64,000 nucleotides of DNA from Odiellus spinosus (Eukaryota; Arthropoda; Arachnida; Opiliones; Phalangiidae), in assembly GCA_963920705.1 (NCBI GenBank), contig OY987226.1, forward strand, positions 13,270,501-13,334,500, given 5' to 3'. Positions 1-63,550 of this stretch are shown piece after piece. The translations under genes and the position numbers were made by a program. Below the pieces are notes generated by a model. That model did no database searches. It worked only from the letters and a program-made list of their open reading frames with translations, and was not told the DNA's origin. Positions within the stretch are counted from its first letter, which is position 1, and each line of letters begins with the position of its first letter.

Positions 1-96
1 AAAAAAAAAATCCCTCTCTGGGACTGGGAGAGATCATTATCCGATTTCGCCCTCCCTTCTAAAAGGCGAAACTTTGTCTTTTTGGTTTATATTCAG

Positions 97-383
97 GTAC
101 CACCCAGGAATCTCAAGACGAAAGCGGAGGAGGAGTGGTCGGACCAATGGGAGAACTTCAATCTCCGACGACGTCATCGCGGGATACGCCCACTCTGACG
201 TCGTACGGGGAAGGAACGCCTTGTTCCTACGGCAACGGAGGAAGATGCAAACGCATGCGTACTTCTTTCAAACATCAGCAATTGAGAGCCATGAAGGAAC
301 ACTTCGCCGCTAATCATAACCCCGACGCCAAAGAATTGAAATTGTTAGCTCAAAAGACGGGACTTAGCAAAAGAGTCCTTCAG
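97..383 (+). CDS. ap: apterous/LHX2-9 class LIM-homeodomain gene, exon with homeodomain residues 1-46 (partial)
   Basis: Internal coding exon of a nuclear transcription factor; in insects apterous patterns dorsal wing identity and neurons. The exon starts after the acceptor TTTATATTCAG at 86-96 (phase: two bases, then codon ACC at 99) and ends at CAG 381-383 before the donor GTACGA. A Ser/Gly-rich linker (about residues 1-55 of the exon) precedes KRMRTSFK, which opens the homeodomain. Arg5, Phe8 and Phe20 are at their expected places, and NHNPDAKELKLLAQKTGLS is characteristic of the apterous/LHX2/LHX9 class. The intron falls between homeodomain residues 46 and 47, a common LIM-HD splice site. 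The LIM domains are upstream of the window. A second acceptor, CCCAG at 103-107, would shorten the linker and cannot be excluded. Confidence 0.93.
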
Positions 384-1616
384 GTACGAAAAATTCAAGT
401 TAAGCCTACTTTTGAATTTTACTCTTAAAGATCCGAGTGATTTCATAATTATATTTAAAACTTTTTAAGGTCATTCGACTGCATGATAGCCCTATCTAGC
501 GCAAATTTATAGGGGTTATTTTTACTAGAGAATTTGAAAATTATAACGAAAAACGTGTAAAAATCTTTTCTCATGATCATAGCATTGAACACGCGTTCTC
601 AAACTCTCTAAAATAAATAGGCGAGAGAAAATGGTTTTTAAAATCCGCGCCTGTAAAAGTGTTCCAACCGTGTTGCACCAAAGTCGTCTATGGAGACGTT
701 CTACAGGGGCAAATGTTATCAGATTATACATTAATCCGATGAACTCCCATTGAATCTTAAAGAATAAAGATGAATAACAAAATCTGGCGTTCATAAGAGT
801 CCAATATGGGCAAACAGTGGTAAAAGTAACCAACAAAGCCACGTGAGAAAAGGCAGCAATACACGAGGGTTTGTTCGTTACTAATTTTGCCACTGTTTGA
901 CGTTAGAGGAGGCTTATTAACGCCAGGTTTTGTTATTAATCTTCATCTATAGTTGTCCGTTGCTAGTAGTCCTAGATTACGTGTACACCCTTATCTTTGC
1001 TCGATTAAATTATGATTAGGATTAAAAATGATTACCGTTCATTTTACAGGGATTATTAATTAAAACGATTAATTAGCCAAATAAATGTGGTCAGATATTA
1101 GGGTAGTTATTAATTCAATCTATCAATTACTCATGAGTCAATATCAAAAAGGTTATAGGTCTATATTAAAGTGATGCTGTCACCATTCTTTTCGAAGGTC
1201 TATTGGCTAAAATTTTTAGGTTTTTCATACTATTAAAAACGTATATTCGAAATTTTAGTGCACTCATTTTTAAGAAACTTCAAAACTTTCCTCCATTGAA
1301 AGTGATTAACGATAAGTTTAAAATGAACGGTAGGACCATATAATGATGAGTAGAATTTCGGAAATTTCTACGTGGCATGTAATTATTCTAAGAACGCAAA
1401 ATAAATATTTAGGGTGTTTTATACTTAAATACTGCATTTTAAAACTTTCATCTTGGGTGGGTTTCATGTTACCAGAACTTTTAAAACACTTTACATAAAT
1501 ATGTCATGTGAATTTGGTCTGTGGGGGGGGGGGGGGGCTATATTTTATCTCTAATCTAAAGTTTAAATCTTTCTGATGAAGCGCAGGTGGATTTACCTAA
1601 ATATCCTTTAATTTAG
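384..1616 (+). other. apterous-class gene intron splitting the homeodomain
   Basis: Intron of 1233 bp with donor GTACGA at 384 and acceptor TTTAATTTAG ending at 1616. It holds a foldback element (763-948), a run of 15 G (1523-1537) and otherwise AT-rich sequence without a supportable coding frame. The open frame antisense at 525-893 lies within the foldback and shows no protein features. Confidence 0.9.
763..948. repeat. foldback MITE-like element, family I, copy 1
   Basis: The left arm (763-835, with GATGAATAACAAAATCTGGC) is an imperfect inverted copy of the right arm (875-948, with GCCAGGTTTTGTTATTAATC). CAAACAGTGG and CCACTGTTTG pair further in. A related element lies at 33118-33253. There is no coding capacity. 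Element ends and target duplication were not resolved. Confidence 0.75.
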
Positions 1617-2098: not shown

Positions 2099-3554
2099 AA
2101 CTCAATCGAATGTCATTAAAAAAACTGAAAGTCACTAAGCCTAAATTGCAGATAAATAGGCCCGAATTAAGCTTAACCAAGGCTTAACTCGGTAATATTA
2201 TTTACCTTAAATAATGACTAAATATGATGTATCTGTCATACTAATTATTATTACCATGAAACACGACTAAATTATTATTTCTGTATAAAATATTCTTTTG
2301 TAAATTGAAATAAAACTAATTCTACAACATAAATTTCAAGATATAATCAATTTAAATAATCTGATCTTAAAAAATGTCAAACCCTAAATACCTGTTAACC
2401 TTTGTAAAATAAAATAAAAATAAAATTCAACTTCGGAACGGACTGTTTTAAATAGACTAAAAAAAGGTATATCTTGGTTTATTTTTATTTAAGTTATATT
2501 TATAACCAAAAGTTAATGAAATATGTTTTGAAGATTAGTAAATAATTTCCGGGTTTATTTCGTAGTTCTCTGACAGTATAAGTTACGAAAATCCTGTGTT
2601 TGCGTCTTCTAGCGTGATCTACCTCCCTTCCTCAGAATGGGTTCAAATAAATTTAAATTTTCCCCAAAGGGAGAGATATTTGAATTAGGCCCTACCCTAG
2701 CGAGTAAAAGAGGAAACATTACAACACAAGAGTGAGTGAGTGACGCTAAATAGGACGATAGTTCCATTGTAATTAAACTTCACAAATTAAGATTTTATTT
2801 ACTTCTGCCATAAATGGATCTTCTCTAAGCTACACGGCTGTTGTATTTAATAATTTAGACCCCAATTTGCCCTCTTTTATTCAGTGAGAAACATTCAAAA
2901 TCTTTCGACGTTCTCGATAATTCGAAATAATAACTTTGAATTCATCTTCCGGAGGAATGACTGCCATTGGCTAAAGATTTTATATCGGGGAAAGAACGCA
3001 ATGAAGGAAGGGTTCAAGTTCTTAATTCCTAATAAGGTCGCTGGGCGTCAGGTATACCGACTTTTTAAGGACACGAAAGAGATAAAAAAACTATCTTATA
3101 TACCGAGTCAGTAAACAATTAACTTTTGTTTCTGCTGAAAGCTTTAAATTAAATCGGATTGAAAAAAATATATCCATTCAATCAAAGTCTTTTAGCTTGG
3201 CTGTTTAATTTTATTTTAATATAGTTCCGGTACGCTCTAAGGGATAGGCCCCTAAGAATAAGATTGAAAATTATAAAAAAAAATGCAATAATGTAAGAAA
3301 AATACCCATAATTAAATATTGGACTCGGCTTTAAAAAATACTTGAGAAGATAATTCCCAAGGTTAAGCGAAAAACGAGACTTCGCGTAAGAAAGAAAGAT
3401 TATATATTAAAATCCTTCAGCCAATTTATAATTTAAAGATTGTAAAAATTGTTATAAAATTAAAAGACTGATGGGAACAAACCAAAGGAATATTTTGGAA
3501 CTTTGAGAATTTCCCATAGAAATAATTTAGAAATTGTAATAAGTTAAAAAGGCA

Positions 3555-3866
3555 TATTTTGAATATAATCAAATATTTTAGGAATATTATCATAGTCATA
3601 TTTTAAGAATAATCATAGGAATTACCACAGGAATAATTTAAGGGGTTACAGAAATTACCATAGGAATATTTTAAAGAATTATATAGTAATTACCATATTC
3701 AAATTTTAGGTAATTATATAGTAATTACCATATTCAAACTTTAGTTAATTATATAGGAATTAACATATTAAAATTTTAAGGAATTTTATAGGAATTACCA
3801 TGGGAATATTTTAGGAAATTTTATAGGAATTATCATGGGAATATTTTAGGAAATTATAGTAACTAA
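3555..3866. repeat. degenerate AT-rich tandem repeat, unit about 36-42 bp
   Basis: Recurrent blocks of ATATAGGAATTACCAT followed by GGGAATATTTTAGGAA, with substitutions and small indels, about eight units. The most similar neighbours are at the right end (3780-3850). Not coding. Confidence 0.8.
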
Positions 3867-23096: not shown

Positions 23097-24778
23097 AAAG
23101 AACAACAGCAACTCCCCATAAGAGTCTGGGTCCACGTAATGTTAAAAATTTTCGTCTCTTTTATGATAAATTCGTATTATATTATTAAAATAGGGTAGTT
23201 GGGGGATAATTTAAAGCTAAAATTCGAGCTCACAACTGTAAATTTTGGGAATTACAACGAATGGAAGGTTTCTTCCATAATGTAAAGAATAGGAAGAATC
23301 TATGACTTCCGTGCCGGATATGAAAGCCTTCCCCCACACGAAAATCTTGAACGGTTATTATTTTAGATTCATAATTATGTTAGGAAAATATTAGGAAAGA
23401 ATTATTTTGTAACTGCCACGGGTATAGTGCTGGCGGCAAAATGAAATTCGTATATTTTTGGTCTACTATGCCTCGAAATCCTCGAAAACGCCTGTAGAAG
23501 TGTTCCACTTGTCAAGCATTCATGCAGTAGGCTTTTGCTAGCTTTACAGGGGCCGTGCAAAGACTATATAGCTTACTTGAATAGTCTTTGGTGTATAAGA
23601 AACTCGAAAAATAAATAGAGAAATCATACCAATTAGAAGATACTGGAGTAGTATCTTTAATTTTTATTTCATATTAAACAAAACACACTTGTATAAAACG
23701 GACAAATTATTCATTTAACGCTAAGGTTTTCTACGTTTAACGTATGTCTGGTAGTTCAAGCTCAGTGGCATCTTCACACACTACACGCAATTTTGACTGG
23801 TACCAACTGCCTCGATCTTCATGGCGACGATAACCAAGATACCAGATTACGCTGCTAACGTGAACACAAGTACCTATCGTCAAACTACCACCTTTGCAAT
23901 TGCAATACCAGCCTTTAATGGCATTTGCACCTGTCCCGTTCGGTACATAACGAATTAGAGCTTGGTGAACAGCTGAGGTGGAAAATTGACCAGGCACGCG
24001 TATACGAATTAAGTCATGTTCAACTTTGGACACTTCGACGCTGAAAGAGCCGGATTTCTCTATAGTCAACGCCACATAAGATTCAGCGCGTTTCGTTTTA
24101 AAGTCGCTCATTACCACCTCACGTACATCACTTTCACGAAGTACAGGGAAGTCTTGAAATTCACTATCCTCAATTCGTTGTCATTGAGGATTTTCTTTCG
24201 TAGAGACTGCCAGCATTTTTTCGACGGAGTCTTCCCAGGAACCTTTAAGATGTAACTCCGGGTGGTAGGCGTTCAACAGCGCAGCAGCAATTTGAAGAAG
24301 TTCCGGAACTAATGGTAACATATGCACAGGTATACGGTTTTGAAAAAAACGATACACCGTCTGCAAATGCCCATTCCTAACTTCAACCGGCCACCTGAAG
24401 TACGTTACTTGTCGGGAACGATTAACTTCTTGCGTGTTTACTTGCTTCTCGCCTTTAGACAAGAACGAAGGCATTTGTAAATCCACACCCAGTTCAGTCA
24501 GTACGCTGTTGGAGTCTCGAAAACCGCGGTCTGCCAGTACAACGTCACCAACTTGAAAGAAAGACTGGAGTTCTTCTCTCTTTTTGATAGAATGGTTTAA
24601 AATGCGCGCGTCGTTATTGCGGCCATTAGCAAAGTAGGGTCCGATTATATCTATTATGTAACCCGTAGTTGTTACCATTAACATTGGCTTGAGGATATGC
24701 TGGCCTTTGGCACACAGAAGGATTTGTGAAGAACGGTATAGTCCTTGGATCTTCCAACCTTGATATAGGTGCCATCTA
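23097..24778 (-). repeat. left arm of the transposon palindrome
   Basis: Inverse-complement match to 26047-27776, ending where the two diverge upstream of the VDGTY codons. It includes a transposon 3' flank of about 640 bp outside the coding remnant (23097-23736). Confidence 0.9.
23737..24778 (-). pseudogene. 5'-truncated transposase remnant (DDE domain and SWIM finger)
   Basis: Coding remnant matching the C-terminal half of the + strand transposase, from VDGTY (near 24770) to the terminal LELPDIR and stop. Three lesions are visible by comparison with the other copy. One base is missing near 24709 (TGTGTGCC versus TGTGTGCAC), shifting the frame. A 45 nt (15 codon) in-frame deletion lies next to 24184. 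A TGG to TGA change gives a stop at 24181-24183. The C-terminal SWIM zinc finger remains open in 23737-24117. Useful as an outgroup: it keeps AAG (Lys) where the + copy has TAG. Confidence 0.9.
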
Positions 24779-24781
24779 CAT

Positions 24782-24803
24782 ATATTAAAGACGTCTTTAA
24801 TAT
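24782..24803. repeat. 22 bp perfect palindrome at the duplication junction
   Basis: ATATTAAAGAC followed by its exact complement GTCTTTAATAT, centred on GACGTC. It lies precisely where the left arm stops matching the right arm, so it may mark the rearrangement breakpoint. Confidence 0.85.
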
Positions 24804-24943
24804 TTTTTGCCAGCCAGGTTGGCGAAAAATAATTAAACCTGTTTTTATAAACATTAAAAAAATTGTAATATCTGGTTTGAACCATGATCTTAAGAACTTT
24901 TCTTATCAATAACATCAATGTGAGAGTCACTTGGAATTTGGAG

Positions 24944-27136
24944 ATGGCTCCAAATACATGTTACGCGTGCAATCGGAAAGTTACCAATAGTACAAGTAGA
25001 GGTATAGGCACTCACGTAAAGGCTGGCTTTGCTCGTTTTCTTCGTTTTAGTGAAGGGTTATTACCACTTGTAATTAATAGCAAAACAACGAAGATTTGTT
25101 TAAAGTGCTCGGGTCTGTCACGAAAGTTTCAAACGTTCTTAAATGCTAGCAAATCGTCCTTCAGTAGTGATCATGGCTCTTCAACGTCATCGTCTCCACC
25201 ACAAAAACGAAGACAAATGAAGCAAGTATCTAATCCATCAACGTCAACAGTACCTGAGCCATCAACGTCCACAGTACCTGAACCAACAAAGTCCACAGTA
25301 TCTAATCCATCACCGTCACCAATACCTCAGCCATCAACGTCGCAATTACCACGAAAGCGTACGTCATCAAACACTATTGCCATAAAGCACAGTTGTGTTC
25401 GGCCCCTGCCAAAGACTTGCTTCATTTGCGGTGTTAGTACACGAACCAGGGTAAAAGCCGAAGTGAGAACAAGTATATTTGTGGAAAGAGCCATATTTAT
25501 TCATCGGGACAACCGAATGTGCTCCACGCATCTCGTTAACGGAGAGCTTCCCACCGAAATAATTGCTGGAATTCAGGTTTTCGCTAGATCAACCATTATG
25601 ACTGCAACGGACATTGAGCAACTATTACAGGACCTCAGGAAATGTGTTAACGACCTACGGACGCCGAGCTTTGACAACTTCATACAAAGTGATGAAGACT
25701 GTAAAGTAGTAACTTCATTGTCCCTGCACGAGTTCCTAGAGTTGCATTCGACTATTGAGGACATTATTCGTACCATCAGATGCTGTTCGTCGAAGACAGC
25801 TCTAGCAGTATTATTGGTGAAATTACGATTGGGTATCTCCAATAAGGTGTTATCAACTTTATTTCATTTAACTGAAAGATCGGTATCAAACACGGTAAAA
25901 GCGGTTATTATGGCTTTATCGGAGCATTTCGTGCCACATAATTTTGGCCTGCAACACTTATCACGTGACAATCTGATAACAAACCATCAATCTGGAGCAG
26001 CAGTAAAACTCTTTGCTAACAACAAGCCTAATTGTCTTATTACCATTGTAGATGGCACCTATATCAAGGTTGGAAGATTAAAGGGCTATACCGTTCTTCA
26101 CAAATCCTTCTGTGTGCACAAAGGCCAGCATATCCTCTAGCCAATGTTAATGGTAACAACTACGGGTTACATAATAGATATAATCGGACCCTACTTTGCT
26201 AATGGCCGCAATAACGACGCGCGCATTTTAAACCATTCTATCAAAAAGAGAGAAGAACTCCAGTCTTTCTTTCAAGTTGGTGACGTTGTACTGGCAGACC
26301 GCGGTTTTCGAGACTCCAACAGCGTACTGACTGAACTGGGTGTGGATTTACAAATGCCTTCGTTCTTGTCTAAAGGCGAGAAGCAAGTAAACACGCAAGA
26401 AGTTAATCGTTCCCGACAAGTAACGTACCTCAGGTGGCCGGTTGAAGTTAGGAATGGGCATTTGCAGACGGTGTATCGTTTTTTTCAAAACCGTATACCT
26501 GTGCATATGTTACCATTAGTTCCAGAACTTCTTCAAATTGCTGCTGCGCTGTTGAACGCCTACCACCCGGAGTTACATCTTAAAGGTTCCTGGGAAGACT
26601 CCGTCGAAAAAATGCTGGCAGTCTCTACGAAAGAAAATCCTCTTAAGGAAGTAGTCGAGCGCGATAATCTGCTTCGCAAACCGTCTAAATGGCAACGAAT
26701 TGAGGATAGTGAATTTCAAGACTTCCCTGTACTTCGTGAAAGTGATGTACGTGAGGTGGTAATGAGCGACTTTAAAACGAAACGCGCTGAATCTTATGTG
26801 GCGTTGACTATAGAGAAATCCGGCTCTTTCAGCGTCGAAGTGTCCAAAGTTGAACATGACTTAATTCGTATACGCGTGCCTGGTCAATTTTCCACCTCAG
26901 CTGTTCACCAAGCTCTAATTCGTTATGTACCGAACGGGACAGGTGCAAATGCCATTAAAGGCTGGTATTGCAATTGCAAAGGTGGTAGTTTGACGATAGG
27001 TACTTGTGTTCACGTTAGCAGCGTAATCTGGTATCTTGGTTATCGTCGCCATGAAGATCGAGGCAGTTGGTACCAGTCAAAATTGCGTGTAGTGTGTGAA
27101 GATGCCACTGAGCTTGAACTACCAGACATACGTTAA
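24944..27136 (+). pseudogene. DDE_Tnp_4 transposase, full length with one in-frame TAG
   Basis: Cut-and-paste transposase frame of 730 codons, interrupted only by TAG at 26138-26140 (codon 399). The chosen start is ATG 24944 (MAPNTCYAC); the frame is open to an earlier ATG at 24884. Domains in order: Cys pairs C6/C9 and C52/C55 (a ZAD-like zinc module); a Ser/Thr/Pro-rich linker, residues about 75-140; a second CxxC...CxxH module (CFICG, CSTH); a helix-turn-helix of HTH_Tnp_4 type about 284-330 (LRLGISNKVLSTLFHLTERS); and the DDE catalytic domain with Asp370 (VDGTY), Asp452 (ADRGF) and Glu501 (PVEVRNG). A SWIM zinc finger follows (C676, C678, C688, H690; CxCx9CxH). It ends at TAA 27134-27136. 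A Harbinger-type DDE_4 is the alternative, but the HTH/DDE/SWIM layout fits ISL2EU-like elements better. Confidence 0.92.
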
Positions 27137-37545: not shown

Positions 37546-37728
37546 GTATAGGGCTGTATTTCAGCCATTATTGTTTTTAACACCTTTAATATTATATAAT
37601 TTAAGATATATTTAATATTAATAAGATTACCGCGAAACGTTTCCGTTTAAACTTTTACCAGGAACCGCGAATCAAATCGGACTTTTCAGCATTATTTTCT
37701 TTGGCGAGAGTAAATTCAATCGTAAAAG

Positions 37729-37736
37729 TGACGTCA
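37729..37736. promoter_or_regulatory. CRE/ATF palindrome TGACGTCA
   Basis: Perfect TGACGTCA followed by a CpG cluster (CGCGCGCGTCGAC). It lies about 630 bp before the candidate start of the repeat ORF at 38362, in the CpG-richest part of this neighbourhood. Confidence 0.3.
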
Positions 37737-37820
37737 CGCGCGCGTCGACAGCTTCGGGATTTTTTTGAAAAGGAAATTCGCATGTATTTTACGACAGCAC
37801 AGTGTAGAGGTATATCAAAT

Positions 37821-38100
37821 CAAGGAGGATTAGACAAGGAGAAGAAATGTGGGGACGGCGCGGTTCCTACTGCGTCGGCCTAAACTCCCACTCTGGGAGA
37901 ACGGGGGTAGAGACGTTTCGTGGTAAAATGTTGTCGCGTGAGTAAAACGAATCCTTTATGAGACGCGCTAGCTAGCGACCACGTGACAACAGTTTACCTC
38001 GAGAATTTCCTATCCCCCTTTCCACCCGAGTGGGAGGTTGGCTCTTCTCTCTCTAACTCAACGCAGCCCCACATTTCCTCTCCTTGTCTAATCCTCCTTG
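37821..38100. mobile_element. 280 bp MITE with 7 bp target duplication (family F)
   Basis: Terminal inverted repeats CAAGGAGGATTAGACAAGGA (37821) and its complement ending at 38100, extending inward to ATGTGGGG/CCCCACAT. ATCAAAT flanks both sides (37814-37820 and 38101-38107). The ends and duplication length suggest a hAT-like origin, which is inference since hAT duplications are normally 8 bp. No coding frame. Confidence 0.9.
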
Positions 38101-38220
38101 ATCAAATTTATAAATAATGTTTGGCGCGAGACGAAGTCCGAATTGAGCCAAGTTGCATGAGTCATAGCCTCGATCACGCGCTCGCGAATATTCCAACCGT
38201 TAGTTTAAAATTCACGCGCA

Positions 38221-38231: not shown

Positions 38232-38361
38232 GAAGTTTAAACCCATACTCTGAACAGCTCTTATTTTAGCTCCGTAAGTTTTGAAATTTTAGTGTTATAC
38301 AATAACCCATAAAACTAACTCTGAATTTTCTTTGTTTAGTTTCTCCAGACTGACTCGAATA

Positions 38362-40973
38362 ATGGAATCTTCCAGAATGGATTTAAGGAGATGCCCGCTG
38401 TGCGTTAATCGGAATGTAAGTGATTTTTTTGATTTAACTAATCCTGGGTTTTCCCTTTTTAACCCGCAAGGGTTCCCCCTTAATTTCGATTCGCAAGGGT
38501 TCCCCCTTAATTTCGATTCGCAAGGGTTCCCCCTTAATTTCGATTCGCAAGGGTTCCCCTTAATTTCGATTCGCAAGGGTTCCCCCTTAATTTCGATTCG
38601 CAAGGGTTCCCCCTTAATTTCGATTCGCAAGGGTTCCCCCTTAATTTCGATTCGCAAGGGTTCCCCCTTAATTTCGATTCGCAAGGGTTCCCCCTTAATT
38701 TCGATTCGCAAGGGTTCCCCCTTAATTTCGATTCGCAAGGGTTCCCCCTTAATTTCGATTCGCAAGGGTTCCCCCTTAATTTCGATTCGCAAGGGTTCCC
38801 CCTTAATTTCGATTCGCAAGGGTTCCCCCTTAATTTCGATTCGCAAGGGTTCCCCCTTAATTTCGATTCGCAAGGGTTCCCCTTAATTTCGATTCGCAAG
38901 GGTTCCCCCTTAATTTCGATTCGCAAGGGTTCCCCCTTAATTTCGATTCGCAAGGGTTCCCCCTTAATTTCGATTCGCAAGGGTTCCCCCTTAATTTCGA
39001 TTCGCAAGGGTTCCCCCTTAATTTCGATTCGCAAGGGTTCCCCCTTAATTTCGATTCGCAAGGGTTCCCCCTTAATTTCGATTCGCAAGGGTTCCCCCTT
39101 AATTTCGATTCGCAAGGGTTCCCCCTTAATTTCGATTCGCAAGGGTTCCCCCTTAATTTCGATTCGCAAGGGTTCCCCCTTAATTTCGATTCGCAAGGGT
39201 TCCCCCTTAATTTCGATTCGCAAGGGTTCCCCCTTAATTTCGATTCGCAAGGGTTCCCCCTTAATTTCGATTCGCAAGGGTTCCCCCTTAATTTCGATTC
39301 GCAAGGGTTCCCCCTTAATTTCGATTCGCAAGGGTTCCCCCTTAATTTCGATTCGCAAGGGTTCCCCCTTAATTTCGATTCGCAAGGGTTCCCCCTTAAT
39401 TTCGATTCGCAAGGGTTCCCCCTTAATTTCGATTCGCAAGGGTTCCCCCTTAATTTCGATTCGCAAGGGTTCCCCTTAATTTCGATTCGCAAGGGTTCCC
39501 CCTTAATTTCGATTCGCAAGGGTTCCCCCTTAATTTCGATTCGCAAGGGTTCCCCCTTAATTTCGATTCGCAAGGGTTCCCCCTTAATTTCGATTCGCAA
39601 GGGTTCCCCCTTAATTTCGATTCGCAAGGGTTCCCCCTTAATTTCGATTCGCAAGGGTTCCCCCTTAATTTCGATTCGCAAGGGTTCCCCCTTAATTTCG
39701 ATTCGCAAGGGTTCCCCCTTAATTTCGATTCGCAAGGGTTCCCCCTTAATTTCGATTCGCAAGGGTTCCCCCTTAATTTCGATTCGCAAGGGTTCCCCCT
39801 TAATTTCGATTCGCAAGGGTTCCCCCTTAATTTCGATTTTCGCAAGGGTTCCCCCTTAATTTCGATTCGCAAGGGTTCCCCCTTAATTTCGATTCGCAAG
39901 GGTTCCCCCTTAATTTCGATTCGCAAGGGTTCCCCCTTAATTTCGATTCGCAAGGGTTCCCCCTTAATTTCGATTCGCAAGGGTTCCCCCTTAATTTCGA
40001 TTCGCAAGGGTTCCCCCTTAATTTCGATTCGCAAGGGTTCCCCCTTAATTTCGATTCGCAAGGGTTCCCCCTTAATTTCGATTCGCAAGGGTTCCCCCTT
40101 AATTTCGATTCGCAAGGGTTCCCCCTTAATTTCGATTCGCAAGGGTTTCCCCTTAATTTCGATTCGCAAGGGTTTCCCCTTAATTTCGATTCGGAAGGGT
40201 TCCCCCTTAATTTCGACTCGGAAGGGTTCCCCCTTAATTTCGACTCGGAAGGGTTCCCCCTTAATTTCGATTCGGAAGGGTTCCCCCTTAATTTCGATTC
40301 GGAAGGGTTCCCCCTTAATTTCGACTCGGAAGGGTTCCCCCTTAATTTCGACTCGGAAGGGTTCCCCCTTAATTTCGACTCGGAAGGGTTCCCCCTTAAT
40401 TTCGACTCGGAAGGGTTCCCCCTTAATTTCGACTCGGAAGGGTTCCCCCTTAATTTCGACTCGGAAGGGTTCCCCCTTAATTTAGACTCGGAAGGGTTCC
40501 CCCTTAATTTAGACTCGGAAGGGTTCCCCCTTAATTTAGACTCGGAAGGGTTCCCCCTTAATTTAGACCCGCAAGGGTTCCCCCTTAATTTAGACCCGCA
40601 AGGGCTCCCCCTTAATTTAGACCCGCAAGGGCTCCCCCTTAATTTAGACCCGCAAGGGTTCCCCCTTAATTTAGACTCGCAAGAGTTCCCCCTTAATTTA
40701 GACTCGCAAGAGTTCCCCCTTAATTTAGACTCGCAAGAGTTTCCCCTTAATTTAGACCCGCATGAGTTTCCTATTAATTTAGACCCGCATGGGTTTCCCC
40801 GTTTAGACCCTCAAGGGTTCCCCCTTAATTTAGACTCGCAAGAGTTTCCCCTTAATTTAGACCCGCATGGATTTCCCCTTTTAGACCCTCAAGGGTTTCC
40901 TCTTAATTCATACCCGCAAGGGTATCCCCTTTTAGACCCGCAAGGGTATCCCACTCTGAAAAATTGTTTGTAA
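38362..40973 (+). CDS. candidate repeat-protein ORF (about 870 codons of QGFPLNFDS repeats), frame broken by four small indels in this sequence
   Basis: ATG 38362 opens a leader MESSRMDLRRCPLCVNRN with a CPLC pair. A diverged unit (NPGFSLFNP) follows, then about 92 nine-residue repeats, QGFPLNFDS. Right-edge variants read QEFPLNLDP or HGFPLLDP, ending in TLKNCL and TAA 40971-40973. Within the right edge (40170-40970) indels are 3 bp and only this frame stays open. The core carries C5 to C4 deletions at 38556, 38879 and 39472 and a 2 bp insertion near 39836. Correcting these puts both edges in one frame (2505 bp from the first CAA to the stop). An acceptor-like TTTCTTTGTTTAG ends at 38339 and a donor-like GTAAGT at 38416, so the leader could belong to a spliced gene. 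Function unknown. Alternatives: non-coding satellite, or a decayed gene. Confidence 0.42.
38467..40955. repeat. 27 bp tandem array, about 92 copies
   Basis: The unit begins CAAGGGTTCCCCCTTAATTT and continues CGATTCG. Copies are almost identical from 38467 to about 40140, then diverge stepwise rightwards: TCGGAAGG, then GACTCGG, then TTTAGACTCG, then TTTAGACCCG, then units with 3 bp deletions. A homogeneous core with degenerate margins is the pattern left by unequal crossing-over. Long open frames on the - strand (repeat RIEIKGEPL) come from the unit length being divisible by three; they close in the right edge. Confidence 0.98.
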
Positions 40974-41005
40974 TTTTTATTCTAGGGTTGGACCAGCTGT
41001 CGTCG

Positions 41006-41137
41006 AAAAAAAAATATATATATATTATATATATAATAATTAAAAAAAATATATATATAAAAATAAAAAAAATAAAAAAAAGATAAAAATAAAAAAAAAA
41101 TAAAAAAAAAGATAAAAATAAAAAATAAAAAAAATAA
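41006..41137. repeat. AT-only low-complexity tract
   Basis: Runs of TATATATA and AAAATAAAAA with almost no G or C, directly after the repeat ORF and directly before the hairpin at 41138. Confidence 0.9.
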
Positions 41138-41201
41138 GAATATATTTTAAAACCACTTCTCTCATGACTCTAAGTGAGGGAAGTGGATTTAAAATATATT
41201 C
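41138..41201. other. 64 nt near-perfect hairpin
   Basis: Arms 41138-41164 and 41175-41201 (27 nt each) pair with one mismatch and one potential G-U pair on the + transcript; the loop is TGACTCTAAG. The size and regularity resemble an animal microRNA precursor, but the arms are very AU-rich at the base and no family seed was recognised. It could also be a tiny foldback element. Confidence 0.5.
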
Positions 41202-42795
41202 AAATGCTCTTTCTAAGTGCGGCCTCCCCGTGGCGAGAGCGGATAACGTTACTTTTAAAGGTGTCTAGAAATTAATTTTAGAACCTTTAAATCTAACGGC
41301 TAACGGCACTTTCATTAGAGTAGTTTTTAATGTTAAAAGTCGAGTTAAAATTACGTTGTTATTATCCTGTATAGAATCATGTTTAAAAAATTATTTAATA
41401 CTAATTTAATTATAATTTAAGTGTATGAATGGGGTCAAAGCGTTGATAAAATTCAACTGTACCATCATTTTCTACTCCATTTGTTTATTAGCTGTACACC
41501 TAGTCTGTTGAAAGAATTTGAAGGAACTGAAAGCACGAGGCGTGGAAAGCCAAGAGCCAAAACCCAAACTTGAAACAACAATAATTTTCCATCCCACTCC
41601 TTAATTTGTCGTTATTTTTCCTCTACTCTAAAGAAGTTACATATTGGCGAATCGATTAAAAACTCGCGAACTCCAGTTAGTCCCAATTTACTCGTCAACA
41701 CTCTCGCGGCATGGTTCAGTTCGGTTCTATCAGATTTAAGCTCTTCCCTTTCCTAAGAATCATAACGAATTAGATAATCAAGAGATGCCCCTTGAAACTT
41801 TCTTAGAGTCAAAACTTTTTGCTCTTTAGAAGTTGAAATTGCTAGGGGAATTGTGGTTTCTGTTCATAGAATGGTCAACAAAATGATGATATTTCTCCTA
41901 ACACCGATGATCTGGATCGAGTCCGGTTGCAAGTCTACGTTAAAGTGATCTTAAAAACGATTTTTCGATGATTTCCTAATCTCGCAATCTTCATTATTGT
42001 CTGAATATCATTTTAAAATTTTATAGACGTTGATATACTGTCAATATTTAATAGAGTTTTGTGAACCTTCTCACTCAATATAATAAAAAAAAAAAAAAAA
42101 AAACGATAAATTTGTGTAGAATCTTTTAAAGGTGAAACCCAAATAAACAGGAAATGCATTCAAACCATTCGAAAAAAAAAATTTACCGCAGTGAGATTCT
42201 CACAATAAAACAGTTTGTTAGGACCATTGTTAAATAAAATCGGTTTTCACGACGGACCCTAAGCTGTAGCCTAAAATATGAATGCGTTTAGAAAAGGTTT
42301 GGGGAGAAATAGATTCAATACATATCGAAAGATTTATAAATACAAAATATATCCACCCTCAAAGAGGTCTAAATACGCTCGGGATATTTTAATAAATAAT
42401 AAATGTTGAGGTATACATTTATAAGTTGATATAAATTGTCTTTTGCCCTTTTATTGAAAACTATGTATAAAGAAATTTCAAAAAAACTCTAGATTATGGT
42501 TAAAGGGAAATTTGAAGCTAAAAATAGAACAGCTTTTGAATTTATTTTCCGAATCACCATTATGAATTAAATTATTTGAATTTACGCAATTAATTTTAAT
42601 TACAGTAAATATCGTTTTCGTATTGATGGCACGACGTCAACCCAACGAATCAAACAATATAAAAGCCTACTTTACCTATAAGGGGAGGTGTGGCTAAAAT
42701 TTAATACGAATAGAGCGTGGCTAAAAAAAATTTAAGATAAAATTACACGACCCATTAGTTTCGCGCCAAATCTTAGAACTTAACTCCGTATCTCT
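41202..42795. other. intergenic sequence, no gene seen
   Basis: Contains an A19 run (42085-42103) and the TTAAAGGGAAATTTGAAGC block at 42495-42570 shared with 33567-33640. No supportable open frames. Confidence 0.55.
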
Positions 42796-51169: not shown

Positions 51170-53266
51170 TCAAGTTATACGGAGTAGAAATTGTATATCA
51201 AAGAGTTTGATTTTCAAGTAAAATATTAACGTGATTATTGTCATATGGAAGTAGTCACGTAAACCAATTTAATGCAAATTTCTTAAATGAGGCTGACAGG
51301 GAGTTTGATCAGTTGCGTAAGCCTGATTTTCACCCATATTCAAAATTTACTTTTTAAAAGTGCAAACTATATTCAAAAATATCTACTTTAATGCAGGCCG
51401 GGTGGTTTTTGTTAAAAAAAAAAAAGTCTGAGCGAGGGGCGCGAGAGAGTATTTTTACGACATTTGTCAATCGTAAAACTTCAGCTTCTTCTTTTTTCAA
51501 AAAAAGAAGGTTGATTTATTTGCCTTCAAATAAAACGCTTTGGGTTGCGCTAACTTGCAAAAACGGTCGCCTAGGCTAGCGGCGCCAACGGAATTTTTCG
51601 ACTGTCACTTTTTTTTCCACAGACTATAAGCGAGCGACCTGTAGATTTTTTTTACAACGATAGCCTGTCTAAATTTCCTCTTAAGATCATTAACCATTGT
51701 TTTAACGGTTTATTCGATGCTAAAAAGACTTATCTCTCCTGAGAGTCGTGACCCTTTGATTCGAGAAATAATTCAAGCTTAGTATACCGAACTCCCTGAA
51801 TTTTCTTAAACCGAAAATACTTCAATATAGGATTTATAAAAGATCAGTTATTAATTTAAAAATATATTTAGTTATGCATTCCTGGGAAAAAGTTAAGAAA
51901 ATCATTTTTTCCAATGAATAAGTTCAATTTCAAGTCTACTTTTCTACTTCTTTGACCTTTTGAGCCAACTTTTCAACTTCATTGACCTTTTAAGCCAACT
52001 TTTCAACTTCCTTGACCATTTAAGCCTACTTTTCAACTTCCTTGACCATTTAAGCCTACTTTTTAACTTCCTTGACCTTTTAAGCCTACTTTTTAACTTC
52101 CTTGACCTTTTAAGCCTACTTTTTAACTTCACTGACCTTTAAGTCTTTTTTGGTCTTTTTTTCAAATTCCCTACCATTTAGAAGTCAACTTTTCAAATTT
52201 CCAACCATCTAGAAGCCAAGTTTTCAAATTTCCAACCATTTGGAAGGCAATTTTCAACTTTATTGACCTTTTTAGTCTATTTTCAATTTACTGATCTTTT
52301 CAGCCTTCTTATCAACTTCCCGGACCTTTAAGCTTACTTTCCCTGATCTTATAACCAACTTTTCCCTGACCTTGGGAACCCAGCTGAGTTGGGTCGCGTT
52401 TAAAATTTAACCAGAAAGTCAAACATAAATAGTTTCCAATAATTAAAAAGTGCAGCATCGTAAAACAAAATATATAAGTGATTTTGGAAAGCATATATCA
52501 TTACAGTTCACTATAAGTTGAAAATTATCTTAATTAAAAATACAGTTAGTTACTTAAAGATACAATAACCCAATATACCCCGATTTAGCTTATAAATTAT
52601 ATTTAGCCCAAAGTAATTTAAATAATTTATGCCATAGTTAAAATTAAAATAACATATATGTTCTTTTAATTTTTATCTTTCTTGAATATAATAAACACGG
52701 AACTGAAAGAAAGAACCGTAAACCTTTTTTTTTTCTTTTTAAATCTGAGAATGCTTTGAATTTAACGTTTTGTTTCAAGGAAAAATGAAACGAAATGAAT
52801 CATTCCAAGGTTGATTTATTAATTATTCACGCTCGCCGCTCCCGATTCGAAACAATTAAAATATTTTAATCTATGAACAATTTTGTCTCAACCCGCTTAT
52901 TTAGTTTCATTAAACCGTACACTTAACACGCGAAATATAATATAAATATAGTAAATAATAGAATCTCACGGTACCACCCTATATTTACAAATTTTTAATT
53001 TTCATGTTTACAAATAATTATTTACGAAATGCCGCTTATACTAATGGTTTTATCTCAAATGTGAGGTCATATATCGTTCATTCAAATTATCTGCAGGGGT
53101 TTGGGTATAAGAGGTCAAGAGAGAAAATTATTCTATAATTTCTATGAGTTACGGTGATATATTTTAATATGTAAATTATTTCAAATACCCATCATATTTC
53201 ATCAAGCTTATGTCCTACCGAGAGTCATGTACCTTAGGCGGGAATACTGTTACAGAGCAGACGGTA
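51170..53266. other. AT-rich intergenic sequence with one tandem repeat
   Basis: Apart from the repeat at 51925-52390 I see only short unsupported frames (for example 51391-51579) and AT-rich sequence. Confidence 0.55.
51925..52390 (+). repeat. 30 bp tandem repeat with degenerate right flank (CCTTGACC type, block 4)
   Basis: Six to seven 30 bp units at about 51940-52140 (TTTTAAGCCTACTTTTCAAC, then TTCCTTGACC), open on both strands because 30 is divisible by three (LLFNFLDLLS on +). To the right the same phrases degrade (CCAACCATTTGGAAGGCAA). No start context or unique domain supports coding. Confidence 0.85.
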
Positions 53267-60062: not shown

Positions 60063-60690
60063 TGCAAATTTCTTCCCGATTAGGCAAATATTTCTTCTCT
60101 CTTAGGCAAATATTTCTTCTCTCTTAGGCAAATATTTCTTGCCGCTTAGGCAAATATTTCTTGCCGCTTAGGCAAATATTTCTTGCCGCTTAGGCAAATA
60201 TTTCTTCCCGCTTAGGCAAATATTTCTTCCCGCTTAGGCAAATATCTCTTCCCGCTTAGGCAAATATCTCTTCCCGCTTAGGCAAATATCTCTTCCCGCT
60301 TGGGCAAATATCTCTTCCCGCTTGGGCAAATATCTCTTCCCGCTTAGGCAAATATCTCTTCCCGCTTAGGCAAATATCTCTTCCCGCTTAGGCAAATATC
60401 TCTTCCCGCTTAGGCAAATATCTCTTCCCGCTTAGGCAAATATCTCTTCCCGCTTAGGCAAATATCTCTTCCCGCTTAGGCAAATATCTCTTCCCGCTTA
60501 GGCAAATATCTCTTCCCGCTTAGGCAAATATCTCTTCCCGCTTAGGCAAATATCTCTTCCCGCTTAGGCAAATATCTCTTCCCGCTTAGGCAAATATCTC
60601 TTCCCGCTTAGGCAAATATCTCTTCCCGCTTAGGCAAATATCTCTTCCCGCTTAGGCAAATATCTCTTCCCGCTTAGGCAAATATCTCTT
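60063..60690. repeat. 22 bp tandem satellite, about 28 copies
   Basis: Core TTCCCGCTTAGGCAAATA followed by TCTC. Variants are ordered from the left: TTCTTCTCTC, then TTCTTGCCGC, then TTCTTCCCGC, then the homogeneous TCTCTTCCCGC units; two neighbouring copies share CTTGGGCAAA. 22 is not divisible by three and TAG or TAA-like words recur, so the array is not coding. Confidence 0.97.
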
Positions 60691-63392
60691 TCAATTTTTC
60701 CAATTAATTTACATAAATGACCCTTATACTTCTTTACGTATAGTTCCCTATATTTCTTCAAAGGTTTTGCCAAATTCTCTCTAGTCGCCCATTCTAAGTT
60801 AGGTTAGACGTATCCGTACGCGTTTCAAGTAGAAGAGATCAAGAGATTCTATAGAGTTGTCCTTTAAGACGTAGGGGGCAAGTTTCTTATAGATGGTTTG
60901 GCGGGTGAGAGGGAGGGAGGGTTGAGGTGGTTTCGTGCCACTCTTATCATGGGCTATAATTTCCCCGCTATGGCAAACACATCAATCAGAGAGGTAAAGA
61001 GCCGAGCCGCGCAGCTCGCCGACCGCCACCGAAATACTGAAGCGTATATACACATTTCCCCTTGCACGCTCGAGCTAAGCGCGAATAAATTTTATTTTTA
61101 AGTTTTTATAGGAGAAAGTTAAACACAGTTCCAATCCAGTTCGTACATAAGTTTTTCATTCTAGATTTTTATAAATTTTGCACGAATCTCGCCCCCACGC
61201 GTTACGATCATGATACTTTCTGGGACTACTCTATTCTATGTCTACTTTCTAGTAGCATTAACATATATTTCATGACCTTGAATTAAGCACGGTAATTTTA
61301 AAACATGACTTCGAGCAAATAGCGGAGTTACTTTTTTGTTTTATGCGTGTTTGGGTAAGAAAGTTATTAAAGAGCAGATTCCACTGGGCCGCTCTCAGAG
61401 TGATCTGAATTTCACTGAAAACCCAATTACTCTTGACCTCGCTCGCTATAGTATAGAGCATCGATCAGAGGAACGTAAAATTTAAAAAAATAGCCTCCAT
61501 AAATCATACGAGCGAAAAAAGGGCTCTTTTTCGGTTGTTCTATCGAAAATAGCAGAACAATACAAGTTGTGCAGCGAACGCTTGCAAGTTGCAAAAGAGT
61601 ATTCAGTGGATTTAGCTATATGAATGCCGTAATTCAATCTTATTTACACTCCTTTGTACCGTTCCTGGTTATCTACCATATGTCACAGTCGCCAATTTGG
61701 CTTGGGTCAACAATATTATAGTGGTAAAAACATCAAAGTATAGCAAGCATCGTTTCAAAATTTAGGGGATCTTCGAGTCAATAAATATGTATTGTGATAC
61801 AAAGTTATTACCTTCAGATATTAATGTTTGGTATTATCGGTATCTCTAGTATCTGAATTTAGTGAAAATATATCCGATATCCGATAACTAGCTCGATTAC
61901 AACTAGGTTTTGAAGAATGCTTTCCGATAAACCACGCTTCGCCCTCAACTAACATCAGCAATCCAATAAAACTATAGGAAACTTTCCATCAATTAATAAG
62001 AAATTATGTTTTTTGGAAATATATTTAAATATTGGAGAATTACTACTGAAATAGTACGAAAATACAGGTTTCAAATATGAAATATATAATTTAACACATG
62101 CTTTTCGAAATAACTTGGGTTTAATAACTAATCTCAGGGTGAAAACCGCCTTATTTCTTATTCTAAAAGTCAACACAATTATGAAGCAGATGACACGACC
62201 CAGGGACGCCAATTTTCTAAAACAATTTCACTTCATTTTGGTAATTTTGAGCGTCATCTTTATAGGAAAATGATCTAAATTATAGGAACACATCGTAAAC
62301 ATAGGAAATGTGGTTACTCTGCATCGGAAAAGGTGATTTTATGAGTGTTACATTATGCTGAAGAGCGCATAATTGAAAAGTACTTTTCGAAGTCTCATGT
62401 AACCGAGTTTTATGTGTTTAGAGGTAAGTGCTATACTGAGACATACACTATTGATAAGCTTATGTTGAACTTCATGGATCGACTTTTCTACAAAAAAACG
62501 TCTACAAAACAGTCGAAACAAGGCTTTTTATCGTCGCGGCGGTAAAATTTTAAAGCCTCTGGTTTTTTTAGTTACGCAAAACCAGTTTTAAGTCACTATT
62601 GCGTTCTTCGTAATATCCGTTGCCGCTACTGTCAAAGGCAGGGTGTCGACGTCAAAAATATTTTCTCTCTTAGACTTCTCTACGCGAAATTTTCTCTAAA
62701 GCCTTCACGTTCACGTTCAACCTCTATGGCCCAGCGGGTTGGCTTAGGTACTTTTTAGATTTGGTTCATCCCTAATACTAGATTTGCTTCTTAAAATCCA
62801 ACGTGAAAACTATGGATTTTTATATACAAATAGGCCCGCGGCTTTAATTAAGCTCGTCGCCTACTTAGATCTAAAACCACTTCATTCTAAAAGCCTACTG
62901 AGAAAATCACTCAAGTTTGAAAATCTAAAAGAATTAACTTCGGTCGCTGTTTATTATGTACGCCAAAACGTCGCCAAGATGCGAAACTAGCGTGGCCCTA
63001 CGATCCATTTTGTTTTCTTAAATCTTCGGATTTTTAAAGGAAAACGAAGACACGTACGGAACAGGGGTCCCCCTTCCTTCATTGCTAGTCTTATCGAGTC
63101 GCGAGAGATTTGTGTGAGAAAGCTTCTTTTGCCTTTCCGTGAAAAATCTATTGCTGGCTGATACAACTATCGGACCAACATCGACAAAAAAAAGTCTTTA
63201 AAACAAGTTGAGCACCCAAGAATGAGAAAATCGGACATAATTGTATGAAAATATACAAAATTATTAACAATTTTAGGATTTCAATATCAACTTCCTGTAT
63301 AAATCCAAGTGATCGACTTTCAAAGATCGAAAATGGCTAAGCTAGATAAGGTTAGGTTAAGTGTTTTTAACTCATTTTACTGATTGTAGGAT
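60691..63392. other. intergenic sequence, no gene seen
   Basis: Short frames only (60898-61101, antisense 61955-62212, 62345-62545, 62784-62990), none with recognisable domains or splice-site context. Confidence 0.5.
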
Positions 63393-63550
63393 CAATGTTA
63401 ATTTCCTATAGAGATATTTGGAATTCAATGTTAATTTCCTATAGAGATATTTGGATTGCAATGTTAATTTCCTATAGAGATATTTTGATTGCAATGTTAA
63501 TTTCTATAGAGATATTTGCATTTCCATGTTCATTTCCTATTTCAATGTTA
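63393..63550. repeat. 33 bp tandem repeat, nearly five copies
   Basis: CAATGTTAATTTCCTATAGA followed by GATATTTGGATTG recurs at 63393, 63426, 63459 and 63492, then a diverged copy near 63525. The 63492 copy has lost bases in TTTCCT. Confidence 0.93.

Follow-up and report, generated by a model that had tools for sequence, protein, structure and literature searches.

Can a near-perfect satellite with an open reading frame be the body of a gene, and if so, how does the transcript of that gene end? The question is raised by a 27-bp array in the window, a 64,000-nucleotide stretch of Odiellus spinosus DNA (contig C2, 13270501-13334500) that was analyzed together with the searched genome of 443 Mb in 286 contigs. 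The preliminary description of the locus had proposed that the array was, or is, translated into a repeat protein of approximately 870 residues. The features of the locus are listed in Table 1.

Table 1. Features of the repeat locus and of the region past its stop codon (window coordinates)
Feature	Position	Strand	Basis or remark
Putative short 5' UTR intron (GTAAGT ... TTTGTTTAG)	38274..38339	+	By eye
Leader exon MESSRMDLRRCPLCVNRN, with CPxC	38362..38415	+	Coding-like evolution, 20 copies, 12 distinct sequences
5' splice site GTAAGT, alternatively codons Val-Ser	38416..38421	+	20/20 copies read
27-bp repeat array and right edge	38467..40973	+	Repeat-protein frame to TAA; three -1 and one +2 indels break the frame
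3' splice site end, TTTTTATTCTAG followed by G	40974..40985	+	TTCTAGG in 22/22 copies
Encoded A-rich tract, 152 nt, 68% A	40986..41137	+	Composition
Terminal hairpin, 26 pairs, one internal mismatch	41138..41201	+	Fold, covariation
Predicted HDV-like ribozyme	41206..41311	+	Fold, covariation, descriptor; predicted cut 41205/41206
Ribozyme P1	41206-41211/41235-41240	+	
Ribozyme P2	41215-41220/41306-41311	+	
Ribozyme P3	41222-41224/41232-41234	+	
Ribozyme P1.1	41226-41227/41241-41242	+	
Presumed catalytic C	41300	+	J4/2, within GGCTAAC, 14/14 distinct sequences

Reading frame of the array in the window

Repeat finding placed a tandem array at 38465-40880 (period 27, 89.6 copies, 97% matches). 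As the preliminary description had stated, a single plus-strand frame with the unit QGFPLNFDS starts at ATG 38362 (MESSRMDLRRCPLC...), runs from the CPLC-bearing leader through a diverged left unit into the array, and leaves it via diverged right units to TAA at 40971-40973. Its statement that the right-edge indels are multiples of three also agreed with the sequence, three right units (40788, 40866, and 40917) being 24 nt long among the 27-nt ones, and the other frames are indeed closed there: frame +0 is free of stops over 40464-40954, compared to 17, 16, 2, 16, and 18 stops in the other five. In 12 core units, four of the six frames contain 0 or 1 stop, so that the open core alone is weak evidence of coding; a chance open frame was nevertheless set aside because of the paralogues described below. 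The right-edge changes of the window alone, 10 distinct ones, comprise three synonymous and seven nonsynonymous ones, with codon positions 1/2/3 affected 4/1/5 times.

Two further readings of the array were discarded. A second plus-strand frame (KGSPLISIR, GFPLLTRK) has 17 stops in the window right edge and 222 over 14 pooled arrays; it is nonetheless the frame of most of the copy C2_11461. An argument from a stop motif conserved where the array ends was also dropped, the window copy reading GYPTLKNCL before the stop.

The four frame-breaking indels were found in the core where they had been placed, as 26-nt units at 38548, 38871, and 39464 and a 29-nt unit at 39814. They total -1, and therefore, as assembled, the leader frame misses the right-edge frame. 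The leader frame of the window copy stops 169 codons past the inner ATG 38377.

Paralogous loci

A search with the 3' flank returned 22 genomic places at 94-100% identity, here called family A, and five on contig C3 at 81-86%; the leader DNA was found in 21 places, short pieces apart. Twenty family A copies were read from leader to tail. The unit measures 24 bp in most of them (QGFPLFNP, PGFPVFDP, QGFPFPDP, and others) and 27 bp in the window copy and C2_12769. Read stop to stop directly from the genome sequence, the leader frame extends over 455-1063 codons in 10 of the 21 leader-bearing copies and over 195-259 codons in nine, with 197 in the window copy. A long ATG frame is thus kept in the family, but not in the window copy. 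Several copies change register: those on C1 and C4 are shifted just past the donor, C2_11461 passes inside its array from GFPAFNPE to GSPLLTRK, C6_7076 shifts frame and then returns, and the C6_7128 group also changes frame part-way.

Substitutions within 14 arrays, among which frame 0 is stop-free by construction, gave a ratio of synonymous to nonsynonymous changes 1.26 times that expected in frame 0, compared to 0.89 and 0.97 times in the other two frames, and point to a weak amino-acid constraint on the array. Among the 20 copies of the leader exon, 13 synonymous and 16 nonsynonymous steps were counted (ratio 0.81 versus 0.30 expected), compared to 5:22 (0.35 expected) and 9:19 (0.27 expected) in the other two frames, and CPxC is kept in all 20. 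By its substitution pattern, the leader looks coding-like.

These observations bear on the possibility that the gene is dead throughout and that its array frames simply follow from the length and base composition of the unit. The coding-like leader with its invariant CPxC and the 10 paralogues with long frames make this quite improbable, even though the window frame is broken, constraint on the array is weak, and in the shorter C6 copies a frame shift precedes the end of the array. The proposal of an approximately 870-residue translated protein is accordingly retained in part: long frames and a coding-like leader exist in the paralogues, while the window copy as assembled has no such open reading frame, and the weak constraint on the array and the splice sites that flank it count against the claim in its original form. 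The predicted 3' ribozyme cassette had been missed.

An array of 23-bp units resembling part of the query unit was observed on C14 (L010:3700-5040); it carries no ribozyme match and was taken as unrelated. No mention of the repeat peptides was found in a literature text search.

Splice signals and the upstream region

Conserved splice sites bound the array in every copy read (Table 1), so that splicing could remove it. In that case GTAAGT at 38416 would be joined to the acceptor TTCTAG followed by G at 40985, the repeat would be an untranslated intronic satellite, and the ribozyme would end a short or non-coding RNA, the mature RNA encoding only a short peptide or nothing. Some properties of the family are in line with such splicing, namely, the conservation of both sites, CTAAC before the acceptor in several copies (missing in the window copy, by eye), the frame shift just past the donor on C1 and C4, and the stretch from donor to array, where 3 synonymous and 16 nonsynonymous changes in 17 copies leave amino-acid constraint absent. 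Other properties are not: the leader frame stays open for hundreds of codons in nearly half of the copies, 18 of 20 copies have a leader-to-array distance divisible by three despite five different lengths, and the peptides predicted after array removal (17-49 aa) have no common end. On balance, we consider the purely intronic satellite somewhat unlikely. Array retention is the probable route to the long protein, and splicing a possible alternative. Splicing of a mini-intron, with GTAAGT as donor and an AG where the array begins as acceptor, was rejected because inspection by eye showed no AG in a common phase.

The region upstream of the leader contains repeats. A dispersed repeat lies immediately upstream (37546-37785 and 38118-38162; 549 first-look candidates genome-wide), and an inverted-repeat element with mutually pairing arms is nested at 37821-38103, which also occurs in the C6 copies and reaches 99% identity over 147 bp in C2_10019. 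Some copies of the dispersed repeat occur in pairs of opposite orientation separated by less than 1 kb, and the promoter region may therefore derive from a terminal-inverted-repeat element. Mobility of the whole unit was considered and rejected; the copies have flanks in common, yet no shared ends were recognized.

A predicted HDV-like ribozyme past the stop codon

HDV-like ribozymes are laid out as a double pseudoknot of P1, P2, P3, P1.1, and P4, in which P1 usually has 7 pairs. At 41206-41311 the sequence is predicted to adopt this layout, which was recovered helix by helix with a P1 of 6 pairs and a cytosine in J4/2. The fold is conserved: over 14 distinct sequences, 97.3% of 510 cells are paired (P1, P2, and P3 100%, P1.1 96.4%, with one P1.1 pair lost in C4_10004), compared to 39-46% in a slid-partner control. 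In 500 shuffles, none was as high for paired cells or covariation score. Compensatory changes on both sides were found in 4 of 37 pairs, a count that 16 of 500 shuffles equaled; they sit in two family C sequences of the 14 and hence represent few events, probably one each. In the window copy the ribozyme fold is intact while the repeat frame is broken as assembled.

The initial lead was a sub-threshold Rfam match, RF02682 (21.7 bits versus a cut-off of 44, E 0.16), the best obtained; at gathering threshold, Rfam gave 0 matches in the window. A layout descriptor, composed after the sequence was known, matched the window once, at 41206-41311, versus 6 matches in a first-order simulation of 770 Mb. 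The core pattern occurred genome-wide at 36 exact sites and one with a mismatch, compared to 0 for the reversed control. Of 30 sources scanned with a covariance model, its own training sequences included, 26 yielded the complete element and L010, L040, L041, and L079 did not. The core was found in none of the viral contigs and none of the prokaryote genomes searched. Self-cleavage would occur between 41205 and 41206.

Hairpin, A-rich tract, and conservation around the predicted cut

The hairpin and the ribozyme begin approximately 165 nt past the end of the span covered by the preliminary description. In 18 family A rows compared in 30-nt bins over 40955-41614, identity reaches 0.97-1.00 only over 41135-41314 and is 0.24-0.83 elsewhere, including 0.28-0.66 in the A-rich tract and 0.49-0.73 over the 150 nt 3' of the ribozyme. 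The hairpin is paired in 96.5% of cells over 10 distinct sequences, 7 of its 26 pairs are altered on both sides, and none of 500 shuffles covaried as highly. Its identification as a microRNA precursor was rejected, MIR7696 scoring 25.7 bits versus a cut-off of 83. Across 20 copies the A-rich tract measures 73-152 nt with 52-68% A.

Known HDV-like ribozymes usually lie at the 5' end of retroelements in the passages cited (PMC11620745, PMC3774820), and the ribozyme could by analogy with R2, RTE, and L1Tc head a downstream retroelement or other mobile unit. The conserved block, however, extends upstream of the cut: identity is 0.97-0.98 over the hairpin and drops to 0.49-0.63 immediately 3' of the ribozyme. 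The longest downstream frame in 28 loci (1.2-3.4 kb each, judged by frame lengths alone) is 123 aa. We regard a retroelement origin as highly improbable.

Another possibility is an off-switch, in which cleavage removes a downstream 3' UTR and lowers expression in the manner of the Clec2 3' UTR hammerhead, a precedent mentioned in a passage of PMC11620745. The position of the ribozyme downstream of the reading frame would suit this role. We judge it unlikely, as a covarying hairpin and an A-rich tract directly precede the cut and AATAAA occurs within 600 nt past the ribozyme in just 2 of 20 copies. Between acceptor and predicted cut, AATAAA is present in 18 of 20 copies, and ordinary polyadenylation is therefore possible.

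Other gene families with the same cassette

By core sequence, the 37 core sites were assigned to three families, with 22 in family A, 5 in family B, and 10 in family C. Family B, on C3, contains 21-bp repeats of the FDPTASP type. The open frame spans 408 codons in L072 and 323 codons in L075; an interruption affects L074, and little repeat is seen in L073. In L072 and L074, the 800 nt upstream of the hairpin are 63-66% A with a G fraction of 0.00, resembling an encoded poly(A)-like tail.

In family C, L078 was the sole locus tested. It encodes a RING finger (PF13920, E 3.6e-11, at 2644-3764 on the minus strand), followed in order by a 32-bp array unable to hold a frame, the hairpin, and the ribozyme, and no A-rich tract was seen. 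The N-terminal reading of L077 is similar to that of L078. An upstream exon of L078 looks FLYWCH-like by eye and gave no Pfam match.

Other features of the window and the genome

A homeodomain exon (PF00046, E 2.1e-11) was found at window positions 63-425 and a second piece, an apparent continuation of this exon, at 1617-1859 (VWFQNARAKWRR); we take the gene to be apterous-like. Two DDE_Tnp_4 transposase copies lie head to head at 23740-27136. Other near-identical tandem arrays are located at 60064-60690, 51928-52140, and 63392-63540, with periods of 22, 30, and 33. Nine of 13 COX1 matches of the genome fell on the nuclear contig C17, which is thus rich in mitochondrial insertions. The gene order on the mitochondrial contig (invertebrate code) is presumably nad2, trnW, trnC, trnY, cox1, and cox2.

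Proposed 3' end and comparison with known systems

The window array is probably one member of a family of CPxC-headed repeat-protein genes in which the array is retained and the transcript receives a ribozyme-made 3' end behind an A-rich tract and a hairpin. It would make up the body of a family A locus, one of 22 paralogues that encode proteins of the GFPxFDP type, with the long protein translated from RNA that retains the array and the conserved splice pair offering a second, short product. Cleavage at 41205/41206 would make the 3' end of a non-polyadenylated mRNA, terminating in the encoded A-rich tract and the strong hairpin; the tract may fulfill the function of a poly(A) tail, and 3' exonucleases may be blocked by the hairpin, which would stabilize the message. 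Such an ending would be unusual for a cellular mRNA.

Hairpin-capped ends would be formed in all three families and A-rich ones in families A and B. A broader proposal, which we put forward tentatively, is that an HDV-like ribozyme with a hairpin, and with an A-rich tract in two of the three families, constitutes a standing, polyadenylation-independent mRNA 3'-end module for whole animal gene families, at 37 core sites. If true, it would be a natural counterpart of the constructs with an encoded A-rich tract, hairpin, and ribozyme end that laboratories build by hand, and would allow export, persistence, and translation of an animal mRNA with a ribozyme-made end to be tested. The locus also illustrates that a near-perfect satellite can flag a gene family most constrained outside its repeat.

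A stable 3' structure replaces the poly(A) tail in histone mRNAs, by their stem-loop, and at MALAT1-type ends; there the end is produced by a protein enzyme or by RNase P rather than by a ribozyme in cis. Among the open-licence PMC matches listed, none was recognized that describes an animal gene family terminated by an HDV-like ribozyme. In the cited passages, animal HDV-like ribozymes are otherwise placed at retrotransposon 5' ends, usually in the 5' UTR (PMC11620745), or in the CPEB3 intron (PMC10919898).

The R2, RTE, and L1Tc ribozymes share with the present one the double pseudoknot, described for the R2 5' ribozymes of arthropods (PMC3774820), the cut at their own 5' edge, and their occurrence in arthropod (R2) and other genomes. 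They stand at the 5' end of retroelements, as far as the cited passages go, whereas the present ribozyme is predicted after a protein-coding frame and directly behind a conserved hairpin. The CPEB3 ribozyme is likewise an HDV-like ribozyme within an animal gene, but is intronic and single-copy in the passage of PMC10919898, compared to the 3'-terminal position and 37 core sites of the ribozyme predicted here. The Clec2 3'-UTR hammerheads are self-cleaving motifs in the 3' portion of the genes of an animal family; they belong to another ribozyme class, and an A-rich tract and hairpin are unmentioned in the passage of PMC11620745. Formation of an RNA 3' end, as proposed here, is also described for the HDV-like theta ribozymes of gut phages (PMC10879173); the RNA is a phage tRNA in the passage cited and would be an animal mRNA in the present case.
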